NCBI GenBank assembly: GCA_023150835.1
Contig: JAKLKB010000005.1
Coordinates: forward strand, 30,992 to 94,991
Origin: Myxococcota bacterium
GTDB lineage: Bacteria; Myxococcota_C; UBA6777
Length of the DNA stretch: 64,000 bases
Direction: 5' to 3'
The notes under the pieces are model-generated. The model was not told the DNA's origin and made no database searches. It worked only from the letters and a program-made list of their open reading frames with translations. The position numbers and the translations under genes are program-made. This document shows positions 32,769 through 41,180 of this stretch, in pieces. Numbering within the stretch: the stretch's first letter is position 1; each line of letters begins with the position of its first letter.

Positions 32769-34052
32769 TCAAACAGCCCTTGATGATCGCGGTCGGATCG
32801 CTTGGATCACCAACATCTCATCGCCCTCTTCCCACGGCGTTTTGTGCAGATCACAATAACAACCGCCGATCACAAACCCCACTTCCTCCAACATCGACAC
32901 CAACTGCGCTTGGTGCAGATAACGCTGTGGGATCGCATACACTTGTTCGCTCTCCACACCGTCTTCCGTTGTTCGGTACAGATAATAAGCATCCCAACGC
33001 TGTTCGCTCGGCTCCAAACAACGACCCTCCAAGATATCAACGCATCGCTCGCCCTCATACAACGAAGCCAACGGCTCGAACGTCACCAGCTTTCCGTCCG
33101 CCAAAAAAAAACTCCCTCCCCGCGACCGCTCCCGAACCTCTTCATCCTCCGAGACTTCGGCACTTTCATCGACACCAACGTCCGATGCTTCGGCCCTTTC
33201 AGCATCGTTGTGTTCGCCCGATACTTCGGCCTCTTCAGCGGATGTCTGTTCCTTCGATGCTTCGGCTTCTTCAGCGGATGCTTGTTCCTTCGATACTTCG
33301 GCTTCTTCAGCAGATGTCTGTTCCTTCGATGCTTCGGCTTCTTCAGCAGATGTCTGTTCCTTCGATGCTTCGGCTTCTTCAGCGGATGTCTGTTCCTTCG
33401 ATGCTTCGGCTTCTTCAGCGGATGTCTGTTCCTTCGATGCTTCGGCTTCTTCAGCGGATGTCTGTTCCTTCGATACTTCGGCTTCTTCGGACGAAGCGTC
33501 CAGATCGACTTGATACAGATCGAGCCAAAGTTCGCCCCCTGCGACGAGGTGGTCAAAAGCCCGTTGCAAACAGGCGCGTTGTGCGGACTCGCTGAGTAGC
33601 ACGTACAGGCCATTGTAGGGGATCAGCACCCGATCAAAACGTTGTGGAAGGGAAAATTCGGACATATCGGCAAGGATCAAAGAGGCGCGATCGCGGATCG
33701 CGTCGGGAGCGGAAGAGAGGCGTTGTTGGAGGGCGGCGATCATGTCGGGATGGAGGTCAAGACCTGTCACGCGATGCCCTGCCTCTAAAAGCGGTCGCAT
33801 CACGCGACCCCACCCACAACCCAACTCCAAGACGGTCTCGGCCCCCCGACACACCCGCCGATAAAACGCGATATCTCCTGCGTTTCCTCGGTGCGTGATC
33901 TGATACAGCGAAACATCATACAGATCGGACGAACAGACATCGTGTGGATCGGGCAAAGAGACATCGTGCGGATCGGGCGAAGAGACATCGTGCGGATCGG
34001 GCGAAGAGACATCGTGCGGATCGGGCGAAGAGACACCGTGTGGATCGGACAA
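32769..34052 (-). CDS. SAM-dependent methyltransferase with two tandem-repeat insertions
   Basis: TTG 34052 (427 aa) has GGAGG 5 nt upstream. Residues 1-47 are six copies of an 8-residue unit (consensus PDPHDVSS). The Rossmann core follows with VLELGCGWGRVMRPLLEAGH, VTGLDLHPDM and ILADMSEF. After WLDLYQVDLDASS comes an acidic block of eight 12-residue units, consensus EEAEASKEQTSA (about 188-284), where other methyltransferases go straight to the C-terminal strands. The fold then resumes with SFFLADGKLVTFEPLASLYE. The substrate is unknown. Because the insertions stay in frame and flank a well-kept core, the protein is probably functional. Confidence 0.85.
   Translation of the reverse strand: MSDPHGVSSPDPHDVSSPDPHDVSSPDPHDVSLPDPHDVCSSDLYDVSLYQITHRGNAGDIAFYRRVCRGAETVLELGCGWGRVMRPLLEAGHRVTGLDLHPDMIAALQQRLSSAPDAIRDRASLILADMSEFSLPQRFDRVLIPYNGLYVLLSESAQRACLQRAFDHLVAGGELWLDLYQVDLDASSEEAEVSKEQTSAEEAEASKEQTSAEEAEASKEQTSAEEAEASKEQTSAEEAEASKEQTSAEEAEVSKEQASAEEAEASKEQTSAEEAEVSGEHNDAERAEASDVGVDESAEVSEDEEVRERSRGGSFFLADGKLVTFEPLASLYEGERCVDILEGRCLEPSEQRWDAYYLYRTTEDGVESEQVYAIPQRYLHQAQLVSMLEEVGFVIGGCYCDLHKTPWEEGDEMLVIQAIRPRSSRAV
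33201..33488. repeat. 36-bp tandem array inside the methyltransferase gene
   Basis: Eight 36-bp units encode EEAEASKEQTSA and close variants on the minus strand. The units differ by single bases (A/V, T/A), with the last one (EEAEVSGEHNDA) the most diverged. All stay in frame. Confidence 0.92.
33913..34050. repeat. 24-bp tandem array at the start of the methyltransferase gene
   Basis: Six units; those at 33961-33984, 33985-34008 and 34009-34032 are identical and the outer ones vary. They encode the N-terminal PDPHDVSS repeats. Confidence 0.92.
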
Positions 34053-34091: not shown

Positions 34092-35702
34092 CTAGGAGCT
34101 CTGTTGGCGAGCGGCGGCGGCGGGTGGAAAAGCGTTGTCGTCTTTTGCGTCGCGTGTCTTGGGTGAAGGCAAGGCCACGAGGTTGTTTTTGGGAGGGAGT
34201 GCCTTGGTTTCGTCCAGTTGATAGTCTCGAACGATGCAAAACTCGGTGGCTTCGGCAGAAAGCATCACACCCGGGACACCTGCGCCGGGATGGGTTCCTG
34301 CACCGACCATATACAACCCTTCGACATCTTCGCTTTTGTTATGTGGCCGCAGATAGGCCGTTTGCGAAAGTTTGGGCTCAACACCAAAGGCATTGCCGTA
34401 GTGCGAGTTGAGCGTATGCTGAAAGTCGTTGGGTGTAAAGACTTCGCAAACGTCGAGGTGTTCGCGCAATCCTTCAAGCCCCCACTCTTCAAGGAAACGC
34501 AGCACCTTGTCGGTGAATCCGTCCTTGATCGCGTCCCAATCGAGACCCGAAGTATTGTTGGCGACGGGAATCAACACATACATACTTTCGCAACCTTCGG
34601 GAGCCATCTCCGCATCGGTGCGCGTCGGGACGTGCAGGTACATACTAAAATCATCGGGCAAGATCTTGTTCTTAAAGATATCACGGATTAGTTCACGATA
34701 CCGCTCCGACAAGATCAACGTGTGGTGCTTGAGAGACGGATACTGCTTGCGAACACCAAGGTACAGCAAAAAGCAGCTCATGGTGTACGAGGTCTTGGCC
34801 ACTTTCTTGTCGGTCCATTTCTTCCGATTCTCCGAAGCGATCAGCTTGGAGTAGGTGTGTCCAAAGTCTGCGTTGCTCACCACCAGATCTGCGGGGAAAA
34901 AAGTATCATTGGCTTCAACGCCCACCGCACGGCCTTGTTCGACACGGATCTTTTGGACTTCGCACGAGGTATGTACTTCGCCACCAAGCTCCAAAAAGAC
35001 CTTCTCTAGGGCCTTGACGAGGCTGTACATCCCGCCCTTCGTGAACCACACCCCAAGCTCTCGTTCCAAATAAGGGATCATCAAGTACACCGACGGAGCG
35101 CTGAATGGGTTGCCACCGATAAACAACGGGTGAAAGCTAAACATAAAGCGGTGACGGAAGTCCTGAAAATAACGCTGGACGTAGTTGTGGACAGGTCGAT
35201 AGGCTTCCAGTTTGATCGCACGCGGAACAAACGCAAGCATCGAGCGGATCGTATCAAAGGGCCGTGCGCCGAGTTGATCCGTGATCACCGCTTCGTAGAT
35301 CGGCTTGAGCTTTTCCATGAAAGCATCATAGCGCTCCGCGTCTTTGGCATTAAACTTCCGCATCTCCGCTTTCATCTTCTCGCTGTCACCGCTGTAATCA
35401 AGAAAAGTCTTGTCGTGGTAATAGATCCGATAATACGGATCGAGCGGCAGCAGTTCGAGATAATCCGATAGTTTCTTGCCTGCGGCTTCAAAGATCGATT
35501 CGATGATCGGTGGTGCGGTGATCAAGCTCGGTCCCATATCGAAGGTGTATCCGTCTTTTTTGAGCTGGTACGCTCGGCCCCCGACCATCTCCCGCTTCTC
35601 AAGCAGCTTGACTTGGATCCCTCGCGCCTGCAATCGCACCGCCAACGACAAACCACCAAATCCACTTCCGATCACCACTGCACTTTTCGGCTTTTTCTGC
35701 AT
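34092..35702 (-). CDS. crtI: Phytoene desaturase-type carotenoid oxidoreductase
   Basis: FAD-dependent enzyme that introduces double bonds into phytoene or a downstream carotene. The N-terminal dinucleotide motif is VVIGSGFGGLSLAVRLQARG, followed by LLEKREMVGGRAYQL. The C-terminal FAD signature is GLYMVGAGTHPGAGVPGVML. The length (536 aa) fits CrtI. ATG 35702 is taken as start since the FAD motif follows within 10 residues; it lacks a strong Shine-Dalgarno, and TTG 35735 is an alternative. A tail of about 30 residues rich in Pro and Ala is added at the C terminus. It lies downstream of the fused carotenoid gene on the same strand but about 750 bp away across repeats, so it may have its own promoter. 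Confidence 0.92.
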   Translation of the reverse strand: MQKKPKSAVVIGSGFGGLSLAVRLQARGIQVKLLEKREMVGGRAYQLKKDGYTFDMGPSLITAPPIIESIFEAAGKKLSDYLELLPLDPYYRIYYHDKTFLDYSGDSEKMKAEMRKFNAKDAERYDAFMEKLKPIYEAVITDQLGARPFDTIRSMLAFVPRAIKLEAYRPVHNYVQRYFQDFRHRFMFSFHPLFIGGNPFSAPSVYLMIPYLERELGVWFTKGGMYSLVKALEKVFLELGGEVHTSCEVQKIRVEQGRAVGVEANDTFFPADLVVSNADFGHTYSKLIASENRKKWTDKKVAKTSYTMSCFLLYLGVRKQYPSLKHHTLILSERYRELIRDIFKNKILPDDFSMYLHVPTRTDAEMAPEGCESMYVLIPVANNTSGLDWDAIKDGFTDKVLRFLEEWGLEGLREHLDVCEVFTPNDFQHTLNSHYGNAFGVEPKLSQTAYLRPHNKSEDVEGLYMVGAGTHPGAGVPGVMLSAEATEFCIVRDYQLDETKALPPKNNLVALPSPKTRDAKDDNAFPPAAAARQQSS

Positions 35703-36455
35703 GACACGCTTCACTTTCTTCTCTTGCAACAACGCAGCCCAAACGATCCGCCTCAAACACACAAAAATCATGCTTTTTGGACAGCATCAGGGCATTGCGA
35801 TATCTCGCGTCGATCCCCCTACACGTTCGGGGGTGTACGCTTGCGTTTTGTGTTCCCTACAGATTCTGCTCACGCTCAAAGGATTCGCGAAAAAATCCCA
35901 AAACATCGATCTCATAGGAGTGAGAGGGTGTCTGGATCAGCGATATCTGAACGCGATATCTCCGCGTAATGTATGAATGAGGGGGGGGCAAAGACGCTCT
36001 CTCGTGCAAACAGCGTGCGGCATGGAACACCAAAACCTCGCAGCCTCCGAAGATCGAGGGCAGGCACGGGGGCCTGCCCCTACGAAACACCGTGTGATTT
36101 CCAACACGTAGGGGCAACCCCCTGTGGTTGCCCTGTTGTTGGGGTTAGTTCAAAACAGATGGCGATGAAGAGGTCACCGACGCAACAGATCGAGGGCAGG
36201 CACACCTGTCTGCCCCTACATATCGGCGCACACAACGGGCGGATATCGTATGAGAGGGTCCCCCACGACGCTTCGCTGTGGAGCGAGGAAGGGTAAGGGG
36301 CATCGCGAGAAAGCGCATAGATGCGATTTTGGATGAGTTGCATACACAAAGGAGGGTTTTTGGATGGGGGGTTTGTTTGGGAGGATGCGATTTTGGACGG
36401 GCGTCATGTACGGGGATGCGATTTTGGATGTATGGCGAGAGTCGGGTCTGCCTCT
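35703..36455. other. Repeat-rich intergenic region between carotenoid genes
   Basis: No gene is supported. Three copies of GCGATATCT occur at 35797-35805, 35940-35948 and 35953-35961, upstream of crtI. Between 36050 and 36253 lie several hairpin repeats. From 36318 to 36430 the phrase GATGCGATTTTGGA recurs about three times. The right part runs into the 3' end of the fused carotenoid gene. Confidence 0.6.
36050..36253. repeat. Cluster of GTAGGGGCA-type hairpin repeats
   Basis: Three hairpins: GGGCAGGCACGGGGGCCTGCC with CCTAC (about 36059-36083), GTAGGGGCAACCCCCTGTGG with TTGCCC (about 36107-36132), and GGGCAGGCACACCTGTCTGC with CCCTACA (about 36193-36220). The right edge GCGGATATCGTATGAG resembles TIR family B. 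These belong to a dispersed family also found at 8309, 12955, 28189 and 61461. Confidence 0.8.
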
Positions 36456-39400
36456 TCACCCATTCGACTCGGCGTGGCTGTGCAGCACAAACGGCTGCGT
36501 GGAAGGTCGTTTCCATCGCAAACGCTCCTGACGCAAAGACCGCAAAGCTCGCCACGCCAGCCATATCTTTTGCTTCTTGGTTGTGTAGACGCGCTCGCTG
36601 AGGTTGTCGAATCCGCGTTCAACAAGCCGATCTTGGATCCCCTTGTACACGGTCGCAGCGACCGCCACAGGGCGCTGGAAAAATTCGGGCAAACACGGGA
36701 TCGCCACAAAAGCTTCTTGGTAAGCCCGATCGGCGATCTCGGCGATCTCTTGCAAACAGGCCCGATACCCCGAAGTGATCGGCATCTTTCCCTCAACCAT
36801 CTCCGCGATCTGCGCTTCCTCCACCCCATGCTTCGCCATCACCGACGCAGGCAGATACAACCGACCCATCCGCCAATCTTCGCTCACATCGCGCAAGATA
36901 TTGGTCAACTGCATCGCATGACCCAACAAAGACGCTCGCCGCAACACTTCGCGATCATGCACCCCAAACAACTCCGTCAACCAACACCCCACCACCGAGG
37001 CCACACGATACGTATACAGCTGCAACGCCTCCATATCCCGATAACGACGCGGCGTGATATCCATCCGCACCCCTTCGATCAACGCATCCACATACGCAAA
37101 CGGCACTCCCGCCCCCGCCATCTCACCCATCACAGACCCCAACAACGGATGCTCCGACAACTTCCCCTCATAGGCCGCTCGCGCCAAGCCTTTCCAAGCA
37201 TCCAACAACCGATGCAACGCCGTCTCCGAGAGCCCTTCTCGACCATCCACCAGATCGTCTGTGTAACGGCAAAAAGCATACACGCCCGCCACTTGTTCCA
37301 TCTCACGTTTCGGAAAAAACTGCGATGCAAAACGAAACGACTTGCTGTGTTGCGCAAAATAATCGAGATGCGAACCCGATCCAACCAGATCACGCGCTTC
37401 CAACAATCGCTTGATCTCCGCATCTTCGGCTTTTGTCACCGCGTTCTCATACGCCACTTCATCCTCGATCACCTGATGCGCACGCTCTTGCCAACGCGAA
37501 ACCACCGCGCACAACACAGGTTGCTCCCCCGCAAGCTCCCGCAAGTCCGACAAAAATGCTGTATAGATCTCGTCAAGATGTGACAGCGCCCGTTCCATCG
37601 CAGCCTTTTGCTCTACCCGACGAAACAACGCACCACACAAGCCAGCCCCGACCTTCTCTCCTTGTGGCACTGCAAAGAACGCTCGCGGCCAAGTCCACTT
37701 TCCTTGAAGAAAGTCTTGAAAGGCAGGTTTCCCCGTCTGAGCGCGTGGACAATAATCCAGCAGATCATCCAACATCTGATACAAACAACCCAAACGCCGA
37801 CCCAACGCATAATACGCCATCGCCTGCGGATCTTCCGACAACATCGGCTGGATCGCCATCGCAAAACCAAACAACTCGCCCGACTTGCCACCGACGATCT
37901 CTTCGTACGCTTCCCGCGTCAGTTCTTTTCCAACAGCACGCGCTTGACGCAACTCACCTGCCACCGTTCGCTCGACCACCCGCGCAAACAGCGTCATCAA
38001 CGGCAACGAACCCGTCTGCGCGATCACCCGATACGCCGCCGTCAAAAAATGATCGCCCATCACCAACGCCGCTCCTACGCCGCGCTCTGCATACAACGTC
38101 GGTTGCCCCCGTCGTTCGGCGGCTTCGTCGATGATATCGTCATGCAACAGCGAAGCCTCGTGAACCATCTGCACAGCCAGCGCTCCCTGCCAAAACCGCG
38201 CATCCTCCGCCCCCAACGAAGCGGCGATCCCGTATCCCACCAACGGGCGGATCATCTGCCCTTCCAACGCGATCTTCGGCAAACCTTCGGCTTCCAGTCT
38301 TGCGGATTGGCCTTGCAAACCCAACAAGACCGCTGACTGCGCAAGCTCCAACGTTCCCTCACGCTCTCGCCTCAACAAACCTTCGCTCTGTTGTGTGTCC
38401 ACAGAAACCGACGTAGCATCCGCCGTATTCGAAGCATCAGTGGACAGAACCGCTGCGGCAGACACCGATGGCGTAGACTCTTCGGTGCGCTTCCATACTC
38501 CGCTGGATGCAGCCCCCAAGATGCCCGACGATACCGACCCACCGTTGGACGAGTCCGACGAAGCACCCGCCGAACGCCACATCACGCTCTCCATAGAAAA
38601 CGCTGGCTTCCCTCCGCTCGGTGGCTGCGCTTCTTGTGCGCGCCAACGCGCCCACAACATCCCCAAAACACACACCTGATACGCAAACAAGTTCAGCGCC
38701 ACCGCGCCCCACAAACCACCGATCGCCACCATCCCCAGCGACAAACCTACATTCAACCCATAAAACCACGCCATCCACCGCACGGGCAACGCACGCACCC
38801 ACGCATCGACACGCAACCACACCAACGCTCCCATCACCGCAAGGCTCGTCACATACCAACCAAAGAAGTTGATCAGCGGCATCCCGTAGTAATAATGGCC
38901 TTTTTCCGCCCAGATCCAATAACGGTTGAGGTAGCTCATCGCTGGATCAAGACTCAAGTCCCACATACTCAACAGCAGCGCACCCAGCATCACCCGCCCA
39001 TACCAACGCTGCTCCTGCGGAAAGGTCCACAGCGCCAGCACATACGCAGGCACCGCCATAAAAAACCAACTCACCGGGATCACCAGCGGCACATGGCCCA
39101 AAAGCTTCCAACCCAAAAGCTCCGAGTAATGGTACGATCCGAACGGAAAGCCCAACGTCGTCCCCGCATACTCGCTCAAAAAACTCAGCGCATACACCGC
39201 AACAAACGCCGACCACCAACGCCAACCCACAAAACGCACCAAGACCACCACCAACACCACACCCGCAAGCCACGATTGGCCTTCACCAAACAACCGAAAT
39301 GAGATCCCGTAAAACCACGTCAAATGCGCCTGCCAACCGATCGGAAGCATCGACAGCCAGTGCGGATGACGACCAAACGTCGCATAACCCACCAACGCGA

Positions 39401-39482
39401 CAACGCAAAACGCAGCCAAACCCAACAAACTCCAATCCTCTACGCCAAAACGCGAGGCATATCGCTTCCATTGTGCGTTCAC
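36456..39482 (-). CDS. cruF-crtE-crtB: Three-part carotenoid fusion: CruF-like, GGPP synthase, phytoene synthase
   Basis: One 1008-aa chain with three enzymes. Residues about 14-285 form a polytopic CruF/DUF422 domain (carotenoid 1',2'-hydratase type): SEYAGTTLGFPFGSYHYSEL, WDLSLDPAM, and MPLINFFGWY. A linker of about 100 residues rich in Ser and Ala follows. Residues about 390-680 are a polyprenyl synthase with both Asp motifs, LLHDDIIDEA and QMLDDLLDY. Residues about 700-985 are phytoene synthase: YAFCRYTDDLVD, LTNILRDVSEDW and GRLYLP. All catalytic motifs look intact. GTG 39482 is chosen: AGGAGG precedes it and its GTGA overlaps the stop of the upstream regulator. It should make GGPP and phytoene, with the hydratase domain acting later. 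Membrane attachment through the CruF part is inferred. Confidence 0.93.
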   Translation of the reverse strand: MNAQWKRYASRFGVEDWSLLGLAAFCVVALVGYATFGRHPHWLSMLPIGWQAHLTWFYGISFRLFGEGQSWLAGVVLVVVLVRFVGWRWWSAFVAVYALSFLSEYAGTTLGFPFGSYHYSELLGWKLLGHVPLVIPVSWFFMAVPAYVLALWTFPQEQRWYGRVMLGALLLSMWDLSLDPAMSYLNRYWIWAEKGHYYYGMPLINFFGWYVTSLAVMGALVWLRVDAWVRALPVRWMAWFYGLNVGLSLGMVAIGGLWGAVALNLFAYQVCVLGMLWARWRAQEAQPPSGGKPAFSMESVMWRSAGASSDSSNGGSVSSGILGAASSGVWKRTEESTPSVSAAAVLSTDASNTADATSVSVDTQQSEGLLRREREGTLELAQSAVLLGLQGQSARLEAEGLPKIALEGQMIRPLVGYGIAASLGAEDARFWQGALAVQMVHEASLLHDDIIDEAAERRGQPTLYAERGVGAALVMGDHFLTAAYRVIAQTGSLPLMTLFARVVERTVAGELRQARAVGKELTREAYEEIVGGKSGELFGFAMAIQPMLSEDPQAMAYYALGRRLGCLYQMLDDLLDYCPRAQTGKPAFQDFLQGKWTWPRAFFAVPQGEKVGAGLCGALFRRVEQKAAMERALSHLDEIYTAFLSDLRELAGEQPVLCAVVSRWQERAHQVIEDEVAYENAVTKAEDAEIKRLLEARDLVGSGSHLDYFAQHSKSFRFASQFFPKREMEQVAGVYAFCRYTDDLVDGREGLSETALHRLLDAWKGLARAAYEGKLSEHPLLGSVMGEMAGAGVPFAYVDALIEGVRMDITPRRYRDMEALQLYTYRVASVVGCWLTELFGVHDREVLRRASLLGHAMQLTNILRDVSEDWRMGRLYLPASVMAKHGVEEAQIAEMVEGKMPITSGYRACLQEIAEIADRAYQEAFVAIPCLPEFFQRPVAVAATVYKGIQDRLVERGFDNLSERVYTTKKQKIWLAWRALRSLRQERLRWKRPSTQPFVLHSHAESNG

Positions 39483-40471
39483 TGGATCGCCTCCTGCCCG
39501 ACTTGAAACCCTGAAAAAGTCTTCTTGATCCACTCACGAAACGTCTTCGTTGCCGTAAAGACACACAAACTCTCAAACGGAGCCTCTTCGTCCACCGACG
39601 CCCCCTCCAACGCGCTCCCACCCAACACCAGATGATAAGGCTGCGCAGGATCGTAAAACTCCGACAACACTCGCACACAGCGCAGCGCATCCGCCCTCTT
39701 GCGCGGCGGCACAAACGACACGCACACCATCTGCGCATCATACTTTTTCTGCGCCTTCGCGTACGCCTCCAGCGGCACATTCGCCCCCAAGTAGTATACC
39801 CGCCAACCCAGATGCTCCAACACGATCCGCGTACACAGCGCTCCGATCTGATGCTGCTCTCCCTCCGAACATCCCACCACCGCCCGTCTCGCCGATGTAT
39901 CCGAGATCTGCAACGATGCCTCTCGCAGCTTCCTCAAACTGTGCAACGCATCCACAATCAACTGCGTGTACAAATGCTCTTGCCCCACATCGATCTCGCC
40001 CGACTCCCACAAATTCCCCACATGCACCATCAACGCACGCACGCTCTGATCCATGATATCTTCAACAGGCACTTCCGCCCGCTGCTGCATATACAACCAC
40101 AATGGCTCCAAAAGCTGCGGATGCGATCCCGAGATCCACTTCATCGCAAGCTGATTGATCAGCTCAAAATCCCCGCGTTCTCGGCTCGCTTCGATCCCCC
40201 ACCACACCATCGACTCGAACGGCTCGAACATCTGCAACGCCAACGGTATCGACCGCTCCCGCGCAAACCGCAACAAATCTTCCAACAAGATCCGCCGATG
40301 ACCACCCCGCGTCTTTGTCGACACCATCTCTTCGTTGTTGCACCAACGCTTGATCGTCGACTCATGCACTTCCAACAGGTCCGCTGCTCGCGTTGTCGTC
40401 AACAAGATCTCGCTCAAATCGTTCTCTCGTGTATCCACATCCATCTCTGTTCGTTCTCCCAAAACGCTCAT
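39479..40471 (-). CDS. carH: CarH-type B12-dependent light-sensing repressor
   Basis: The N-terminal MerR-like helix-turn-helix (LLTTTRAADLLEVHESTIKR with GGHRR wing) is followed by a cobalamin-binding half. The four-helix bundle has the photoreceptor signature Wx9EH (LWESGEIDVGQEH; W155, E165, H166). The Rossmann part has ExHxxG in GEQHQIG (H207, lower axial ligand). In characterised CarH, adenosylcobalamin holds a DNA-binding tetramer in the dark and light breaks it, so genes are switched on by light. Here the stop overlaps the start of the carotenoid fusion gene, so the repressor would control its own operon. ATG 40471 (330 aa) is chosen for GGAGAAGG upstream; ATG 40507 and 40489 remain possible. 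Confidence 0.9.
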   Translation of the reverse strand: MSVLGERTEMDVDTRENDLSEILLTTTRAADLLEVHESTIKRWCNNEEMVSTKTRGGHRRILLEDLLRFARERSIPLALQMFEPFESMVWWGIEASRERGDFELINQLAMKWISGSHPQLLEPLWLYMQQRAEVPVEDIMDQSVRALMVHVGNLWESGEIDVGQEHLYTQLIVDALHSLRKLREASLQISDTSARRAVVGCSEGEQHQIGALCTRIVLEHLGWRVYYLGANVPLEAYAKAQKKYDAQMVCVSFVPPRKRADALRCVRVLSEFYDPAQPYHLVLGGSALEGASVDEEAPFESLCVFTATKTFREWIKKTFSGFQVGQEAIQ

Positions 40472-40694
40472 CGAACCTTCTCCGCTCATCCGCTTCTTAC
40501 GAGACATGGCCTGTTTCTTTTGCTGCACCTGCCCATCGCTTCGCAGGCCCCTCACAAAAAACGACCAGCTTCGTCGAATAAACGATTTTCAGGCTCATAG
40601 GATGCTGATCCACAAAAAAACGATGCTGTCTTTGTTTTCCCCAGTACAAATTTTAGGAGAGGACTTATGCGGTTGGACTTCGTTTCGTGGGGTG

Positions 40695-40946
40695 TCACTT
40701 CTTGTTTATACCTAAAAACGTCTCCCGTATGGGGAGTCCAGACCGGAGAGGTGCCCCCCCCTCGCCTCTTCGGTCTGTTCTTTCTTCTACAGTCGGCCAG
40801 CCCAACGCCGCTGCCCGCTCAAATAGCGGAGGTGTGGACGGCCTCTCGTAAACAAACACCTCTTCCATCGGTTCCAGCGTCTGTTGTTTCTTGCGGTGCA
40901 TACGCAACAACAGCACGATCCGCTCCATTCGATCGATACGTCTCAC
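40695..40946 (-). CDS. Possible small basic protein (83 aa)
   Basis: GTG 40946 on the minus strand has AAGGAG 9 nt upstream. The peptide begins VRRIDRMERIVLLLRMHRKK and is basic, with a short hydrophobic stretch. It ends across a strong hairpin (40739-40777). A competing plus-strand frame covers the same bases. Codon choice resembles neighbouring genes only moderately, so this is a weak call. No family is recognised. Confidence 0.35.
   Translation of the reverse strand: MRRIDRMERIVLLLRMHRKKQQTLEPMEEVFVYERPSTPPLFERAAALGWPTVEERTDRRGEGGAPLRSGLPIRETFLGINKK
40739..40789 (+). terminator. Strong hairpin with pyrimidine tail (terminator or attenuator)
   Basis: Stem arms CAGACCGGAGAGG (40739-40751) and CCTCTTCGGTCTG (40765-40777) pair over 13 bp with one G-U, around a 13-base C-rich loop. 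TTCTTTCTTCT follows on the plus strand. A smaller hairpin CTCCCgtatGGGGAG precedes it. The T-rich tract lies only on the plus-strand side, so it would stop plus-strand transcripts. Confidence 0.5.
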
Positions 40947-41180
40947 CGCTTTGACTCCTTCCCGCTCCACAAAAACCACCGAATATCCGGCAAAAACAAA
41001 CCCCACTTACCAACGCTCAACAAGATGCTTTATGCCCGTGTGTTCTGCCAGATCGCGACACGCGGCCGATCGCCCTAAAAAGCCCAACCAAACAAGCCTA
41101 TTTTGCGGGACTTTTTAAACTCTTTGCGTTTGTAAGCGGCATGGGCTACGATGGCGGCCTTCCACAGGGAGGAGGCTGCG

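Follow-up and report, generated by a model that had tools for sequence, protein, structure and literature searches.

A three-enzyme carotenoid fusion gene coupled to a putative B12-dependent light regulator in a Myxococcota genus

Within a 64-kb stretch of a Myxococcota genome (the window: 64,000 nucleotides of contig JAKLKB010000005.1, assembly GCA_023150835.1, here G000), a single gene encodes a CruF-type carotenoid hydratase, a polyprenyl diphosphate synthase (PPS) assigned as geranylgeranyl diphosphate (GGPP) synthase (GGPPS), and a phytoene synthase (PSY), and it begins inside the stop codon of a gene for a B12-type regulator. The two genes probably form an autoregulated, B12-dependent, light-switched unit whose product is a membrane-anchored three-enzyme carotenoid protein. 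The sequences themselves establish the fusion and how well it is conserved, the overlap at its start, the regulator's signatures, and the conserved operon. The features concerned are as follows, with coordinates in the window.

36456-39482, minus strand: fusion gene, CruF-type carotenoid hydratase, polyprenyl (GGPP) diphosphate synthase, and phytoene synthase; one frame, three Pfam families
38628-39482, minus strand: CruF-type membrane domain, residues 1-285 (PF04240 at 72-266), helical in the model
38397-38627, minus strand: CruF-GGPPS linker, residues 286-362, predicted disordered (predicted local distance difference test score, pLDDT, below 50)
37677-38267, minus strand: polyprenyl (GGPP) diphosphate synthase domain, residues 406-602 (PF00348)
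36576-37355, minus strand: phytoene synthase domain, residues 710-969 (PF00494)
39479-39482, minus strand: GTGA shared by the stop of the regulator and the start of the fusion, with AGGAGG at 39490-39495, 7 nt upstream of the GTG
39479-40471, minus strand: regulator of 330 aa, CtMerR/CarH-like (HTH_17, B12-binding_2, and B12-binding in Pfam, hence two B12-binding domains)
40555-40591, minus strand: predicted operator, inverted half-sites (40576-40591 on the plus strand, 40555-40570 on the minus strand) 21 bp apart, matrix score 27.1
40614-40629, minus strand: weak site (ACAGCATCGTTTTTTT; score 5.5) that may be a third half-site; its distance to the pair, 38 bp, is near the 40- to 42-bp step of Gemmatimonadota
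34092-35771, minus strand: CrtI-type phytoene desaturase, the next gene after the fusion (TIGR02734, 574 bits; cut-off, 238)

On the minus strand, the regulator (40471-39479) and the fusion gene (39482-36456) are followed by a 684-bp gap, crtI (35771-34092), a methyltransferase gene, and an endonuclease gene. The open reading frame of the fusion spans 36456-39533 (minus strand), and its likely start is the GTG at 39482, which gives 1008 aa and overlaps the TGA of the regulator as GTGA (39482-39479), bearing out the start inside the regulator stop noted in an earlier sequence-only reading. In the numbering of the long open reading frame (1025 aa), Caroten_synth (PF04240) matched at 89-283 (E 1.7e-41; 142.9 bits against a gathering score of 25), polyprenyl_synt (PF00348) at 423-619 (E 4.2e-42; 144.5 bits), and SQS_PSY (PF00494) at 727-986 (E 1.6e-62; 212 bits), all three far above their cut-offs. 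The same reading had described three carotenoid enzymes in one gene and, for each synthase, its two Asp motifs, and these are indeed in one frame: the PPS domain carries DDIID (residues 448-452 of the 1008-aa form; 38127-38141) and DDLLD (572-576; 37755-37769), and the phytoene synthase domain carries two DxxxD motifs, DDLVD (37245-37259) and DVSED (36876-36890). The only PF00494 and the only PF04240 match in the whole genome (7.56 Mb, 239 contigs) both lie in this gene. An AlphaFold2 model built from only eight sequences (mean pLDDT, 71.5; predicted template modeling score, pTM, 0.43) showed the domains as helical and residues 286-362 as an unstructured linker; the relative placement of the domains cannot be read from it. 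In the congener G001, the frame runs uninterrupted across both junctions with 91% identity, up to a contig edge at residue 988, and the final residues were placed on another contig. Nei-Gojobori ratios of nonsynonymous to synonymous change (dN/dS) against G001 were 0.136 for CruF, 0.110 for GGPPS, 0.128 for PSY, and 0.109 for the regulator; the CruF-GGPPS linker (residues 281-375; 0.575) was the sole loose part.

The same gene order recurs in another phylum. Five genomes of the window's family were found, and all other genomes were related no more closely than at the level of domain. Of 395 Gemmatimonadota genomes sampled, 56 gave matches at E 1e-35, and 42 loci of this phylum were analyzed closely. 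One open reading frame held both GGPPS and PSY in at least 36 of these 42, a regulator of the window's type lay directly upstream of CruF-GGPPS-PSY in 30, and CrtI came next after the GGPPS-PSY gene, within about 220 bp, in 23. CruF stops and GGPPS-PSY starts frequently overlapped (ATGA or GTGA), and a regulator-CruF GTGA overlap was also seen in L027 and L028. The Gemmatimonadota regulator-CruF-(GGPPS-PSY)-CrtI operon thus agrees with the window in its genes and their order, in the overlaps at their starts, and in the type of regulator and the operator, but CruF, joined in the window's genus, was in frame with GGPPS-PSY in none of the 42 loci and was always its own gene. The 30 upstream regulators comprised 18 with the B12 signatures (one without the His of GxxH) and 12 of a type, here called ER, in which ER replaces EH and the Gly of GxxH is likewise substituted; the latter form a clade (L030, L183-L186, L188, L189, L191, L196, L198, L201, and L208). 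Among the remaining 12 loci, a MerR-type CarH-like gene stood on the opposite strand in 5 (L192, L194, L200, L205, and L207), with the same enzyme genes and no inverted-pair operator, and no regulator was found in 7, some of which are cut by contig ends.

The operator is a prediction with statistical support. Its matrix was trained on 29 Gemmatimonadota upstream regions, with the window genome and the congener left out, and describes a half-site, AnATGAnCGnTTT, that occurs in inverted pairs 21-22 bp apart. The regions upstream of 20 B12-type regulator genes held the core TGAKCGNTT 11 times, where shuffled sequences averaged 0.23 and never exceeded 3; those upstream of 12 ER-type regulator genes held it 12 times, against a shuffle average of 0.24 and at most 2. 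Seventeen inverted pairs, all in one orientation, preceded the regulator in 15 Gemmatimonadota loci, a count that draws on the training sequences of the matrix; none was found elsewhere in those loci, in the other three orientations, or in the five MerR-type loci. The count for the window is independent of the training: the pair at 40555-40591 was the only one scoring at least 24 in the 64 kb, and it stands in the expected orientation, 84-120 bp ahead of the regulator; the same pair is predicted in the congener. A relaxed pattern matched twice in the 7.56-Mb genome, once at this locus, and its reversed control matched nowhere. The position of the pair supports self-regulation of the regulator-fusion unit.

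CarH and LitR proteins are AdoCbl (adenosylcobalamin)-dependent, light-responsive repressors of carotenoid genes, and CarA of Myxococcus is B12 independent. The regulator of the window starts at ATG 40471, with GGAGAAGG 4 nt upstream, and keeps all four signatures that have been tied to the light response in B12-binding domains (GxxW, EH, GxxH, and GxxxP; PMC11796333) as GNLW, QEH, GEQH, and GANVP. The cobalamin motifs recognized previously, Wx9EH and ExHxxG, are in place as GNLW-x9-EH and GEQH. Its top sequence homologue in the PDB was 8JBS, CtMerR (phmmer E 6.8e-25, residues 53-322 of a 358-aa reading), and Foldseek matched its model (pLDDT 75) to full-length Thermus CarH (5C8F; E 1.6e-11) and to 8JBS_B (template modeling score, TM, 0.77). 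The label "CarH" given in the sequence-only reading nevertheless proved too specific: only HTH_17 matched and no MerR-type DNA-binding domain was present, the helix-turn-helix shows TIKRW..GGHRR versus the AWERRY type of Gemmatimonadota CarH-like proteins, and the NCBIfam CarH model scored 53.8 against a cut-off of 400. The CarH operator consists of tandem direct repeats with TnnACA every 11 bp (PMC9304148); no two such units were found in the 679 bp upstream of the regulator, where the best degenerate score was no better than in shuffles. A canonical CarH with a direct-repeat operator was rejected on these three grounds. What is common to CarH/LitR of Thermus and Myxococcus and to the present regulator is the B12-binding core with its four signatures, encoding together with carotenoid genes, and an operator, here predicted, at the own operon; what differs is HTH_17 in place of a MerR-type domain and inverted half-sites 21-22 bp apart in place of 11-bp direct repeats. 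The likeness to CtMerR comprises an HTH_17 helix-turn-helix, homology over the helix-turn-helix and B12 domains, the same signatures, and the fold, but the Acidobacteriota homologues checked lay near a polyprenyl synthase at most, not next to the present operon, and had no operator pair upstream of the regulator. In five Acidobacteriota loci (L237, L238, L241, L242, and L244), the distance between the CtMerR-like gene and a polyprenyl-synthase-like gene was no more than about 3 kb.

The regulator might control the same operon while sensing B12 supply or another signal rather than light, which is the less likely possibility. Many proteins that are not photoreceptors use B12-binding folds, and in the ER clade, at the same operon position, many members retain the strongest operator pairs, so that a full B12 site is perhaps not needed for control of the operon; these ER-type regulators are possibly B12 independent, like CarA. 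Retention of all four light-response signatures in the window's regulator speaks against such a role, as does the solved relative CtMerR of Chloracidobacterium thermophilum (8JBS/8JBT), whose tetrameric B12 domain becomes monomeric in light (PMC11796333).

That the long frame does not work as a three-enzyme protein is less likely still. It could be cleaved, GGPPS-PSY could also be started within the linker, or CruF could be a mere membrane anchor; the linker is long, fast evolving, and predicted to be disordered, and a TTG with a Shine-Dalgarno-like GAGGGA was seen by eye near residue 378. The linker frame is, however, open in both species, and the CruF part is under purifying selection and is the sole CruF in the genome.

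For the reading as a light-switched C40 carotenoid unit, several results on the enzyme products and on the extent of the unit weigh against it. No NCBIfam equivalog cut-off was reached by any domain of the fusion, and the product identities are put forward here as probable assignments on that account. The PSY domain fell short of the 15-cis-phytoene synthase equivalog (165 against 500 bits), its best synthase model was HpnD (203.5 bits, below the cut-off of 278.6), and its best structure matches were C30 enzymes (CrtM-like). An Ala at position -5 of the first Asp motif of the PPS domain does not fix GGPP as the product and would allow longer ones. The hydratase domain likewise missed the CruF equivalogs NF045693 (104.4 against 400) and TIGR03460 (100.5 against 154.7), which lowers the claim to the exact CruF substrate. 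The HpnD and CrtM-like matches, together with the similarity of the PPS domain to octaprenyl synthases, could mean that the enzymes produce a C30 carotenoid from farnesyl diphosphate, or longer chains, instead of C40 from GGPP. We regard this as improbable: C40 is indicated by the partner enzymes, CruF and a member of the CrtI family, and by the presence of a lycopene-cyclase-like gene in this genome, and few C40 phytoene synthase structures are known that could be matched. Least credible of all is an assembly or sequencing artefact linking separate genes, the refuting condition named earlier, for although both G000 and G001 are multi-contig assemblies and the G001 contig stops inside the gene, the same joined frame over both junctions in two species and the low dN/dS in all three domains largely refute it.

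On the regulatory side, the strong operator pair was absent in some loci, including the Gemmatimonadota clade closest in the regulator tree, and a sigma-70-like promoter looked for before the regulator of the window was not found. CrtI has no operator pair and falls outside the predicted unit. Contig 234 holds a second cluster, made up of lycopene-cyclase-like, Rieske, methyltransferase, and FAD oxidoreductase genes, in which no pair was found even at a score of 17; the lycopene cyclase is outside the predicted unit as well. The proposed single light-switched transcript thus fits the regulator and the fusion, with their conserved predicted operator, but is not supported for the whole pathway, since CrtI lies 684 bp away and the lycopene cyclase is encoded on a different contig. 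Only the regulator and the fusion would come under the predicted operator, and this unit would depend on light and B12.

The same three-domain order was looked for elsewhere, as had been suggested. Apart from G000 and G001, no three-way fusion was found in a set of 386 genomes from across the domain, among the 395 Gemmatimonadota genomes sampled, or among the matches listed in the contig search. L027, L028, and L030, whose matches looked full length, are adjacent genes in different frames. Within the family, G003 (a metagenome-assembled genome, Deltaproteobacteria bacterium NP119) has GGPPS-PSY as one gene and no CruF match, and CruF and PSY are neighboring genes in G004. The separate PSY of G004 (L025:8411-9514, minus strand) has an N-terminal extension like the GGPPS-PSY linker; a fused GGPPS may have been lost there. 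Also in the carotenoid cluster of G004, a lycopene-cyclase domain is fused to an FAD amine-oxidase-like domain (L025:10813-13143, minus strand; 776 aa), whose counterparts are separate genes on contig 234 in G000. In a concatenated enzyme tree (midpoint-rooted), four relatives formed one clade (99.7/99), so that a recent transfer of the enzymes from Gemmatimonadota was not supported; a PSY-only tree did not resolve the origin of the enzymes. In the regulator tree, the window protein stood beside one Gemmatimonadota clade (93/95), and the history of the regulator may therefore differ from that of the enzymes. Given how frequently CruF and GGPPS-PSY overlap in Gemmatimonadota, the most plausible origin of the three-way fusion is a change of frame at an overlap of this kind. 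It appears to be a genus-level joining of neighboring, coupled genes, in which only the addition of CruF is special. The three-way arrangement had been called nonstandard, which holds for CruF, of whose addition no description was found in the literature searched; the GGPPS-PSY fusion and its coupling to the regulator recur in Gemmatimonadota.

Taken together, these features suggest the following mechanism, in which we infer repression, AdoCbl binding, the light response, product identity, and membrane anchoring. In the dark, the AdoCbl-loaded regulator would bind the inverted-repeat operator at 40555-40591 in its own promoter region and repress both the regulator gene and the fusion gene that overlaps it. 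Light would break the Co-C bond, the regulator would leave the DNA, and regulator and fusion would both be made. CruF, an integral-membrane hydratase on a flexible linker, would tether GGPPS and PSY to the membrane, where C20 precursors made by the GGPPS domain would be condensed in pairs to phytoene by the PSY domain beside it. Phytoene would be desaturated by the separately encoded CrtI, and CruF would then hydrate an end group once the chain is complete; for the end product, one may reasonably guess at a monocyclic, hydrated carotenoid. The fusion itself would have arisen when the overlap of a coupled CruF gene with an older GGPPS-PSY fusion gene shifted into frame.

Other observations concern the surroundings of the unit. 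A small open reading frame upstream of the regulator (40695-41006, minus strand; no Pfam match) showed 8 synonymous versus 4 nonsynonymous changes over 70 codons in the congener and is probably a real small gene. A 36-bp tandem repeat of 7.5 copies (33219-33488) lies inside the methyltransferase gene and is shorter in the congener, and the window holds many further tandem arrays with periods of 3n bases.

Neither a GGPPS-PSY or CruF-GGPPS-PSY fusion nor the Gemmatimonadota operon was described in the literature searched, whose coverage takes in few subscription papers and preprints. The nearest published fusion is the trifunctional CrtIBY of thraustochytrids (PMC10016063), which likewise places three carotenoid enzymes in one protein; CrtIBY, however, is eukaryotic and joins desaturase, phytoene synthase, and cyclase, whereas the present protein is bacterial and joins hydratase, GGPPS, and phytoene synthase behind a B12-type regulator. 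On balance, we lean toward the view that these regulators form a separate group of B12-type carotenoid-operon repressors in two phyla. They would read a DNA code of their own, with inverted AnATGAnCGnTTT half-sites that stand 21-22 bp apart and, in certain operons, recur roughly every 62 bp; one branch would have a degraded B12 site and a retained operator, and in one genus the operon would have been condensed into a single membrane-anchored three-enzyme protein. The locus would then illustrate stepwise gene fusion in one pathway, from separate coupled genes to a two-enzyme and then a three-enzyme fusion, and offer a ready-made three-domain enzyme for testing channeling at the membrane. CtMerR-like light-sensor candidates would gain a probable function, at carotenoid operons, and a testable DNA site unlike that of CarH.

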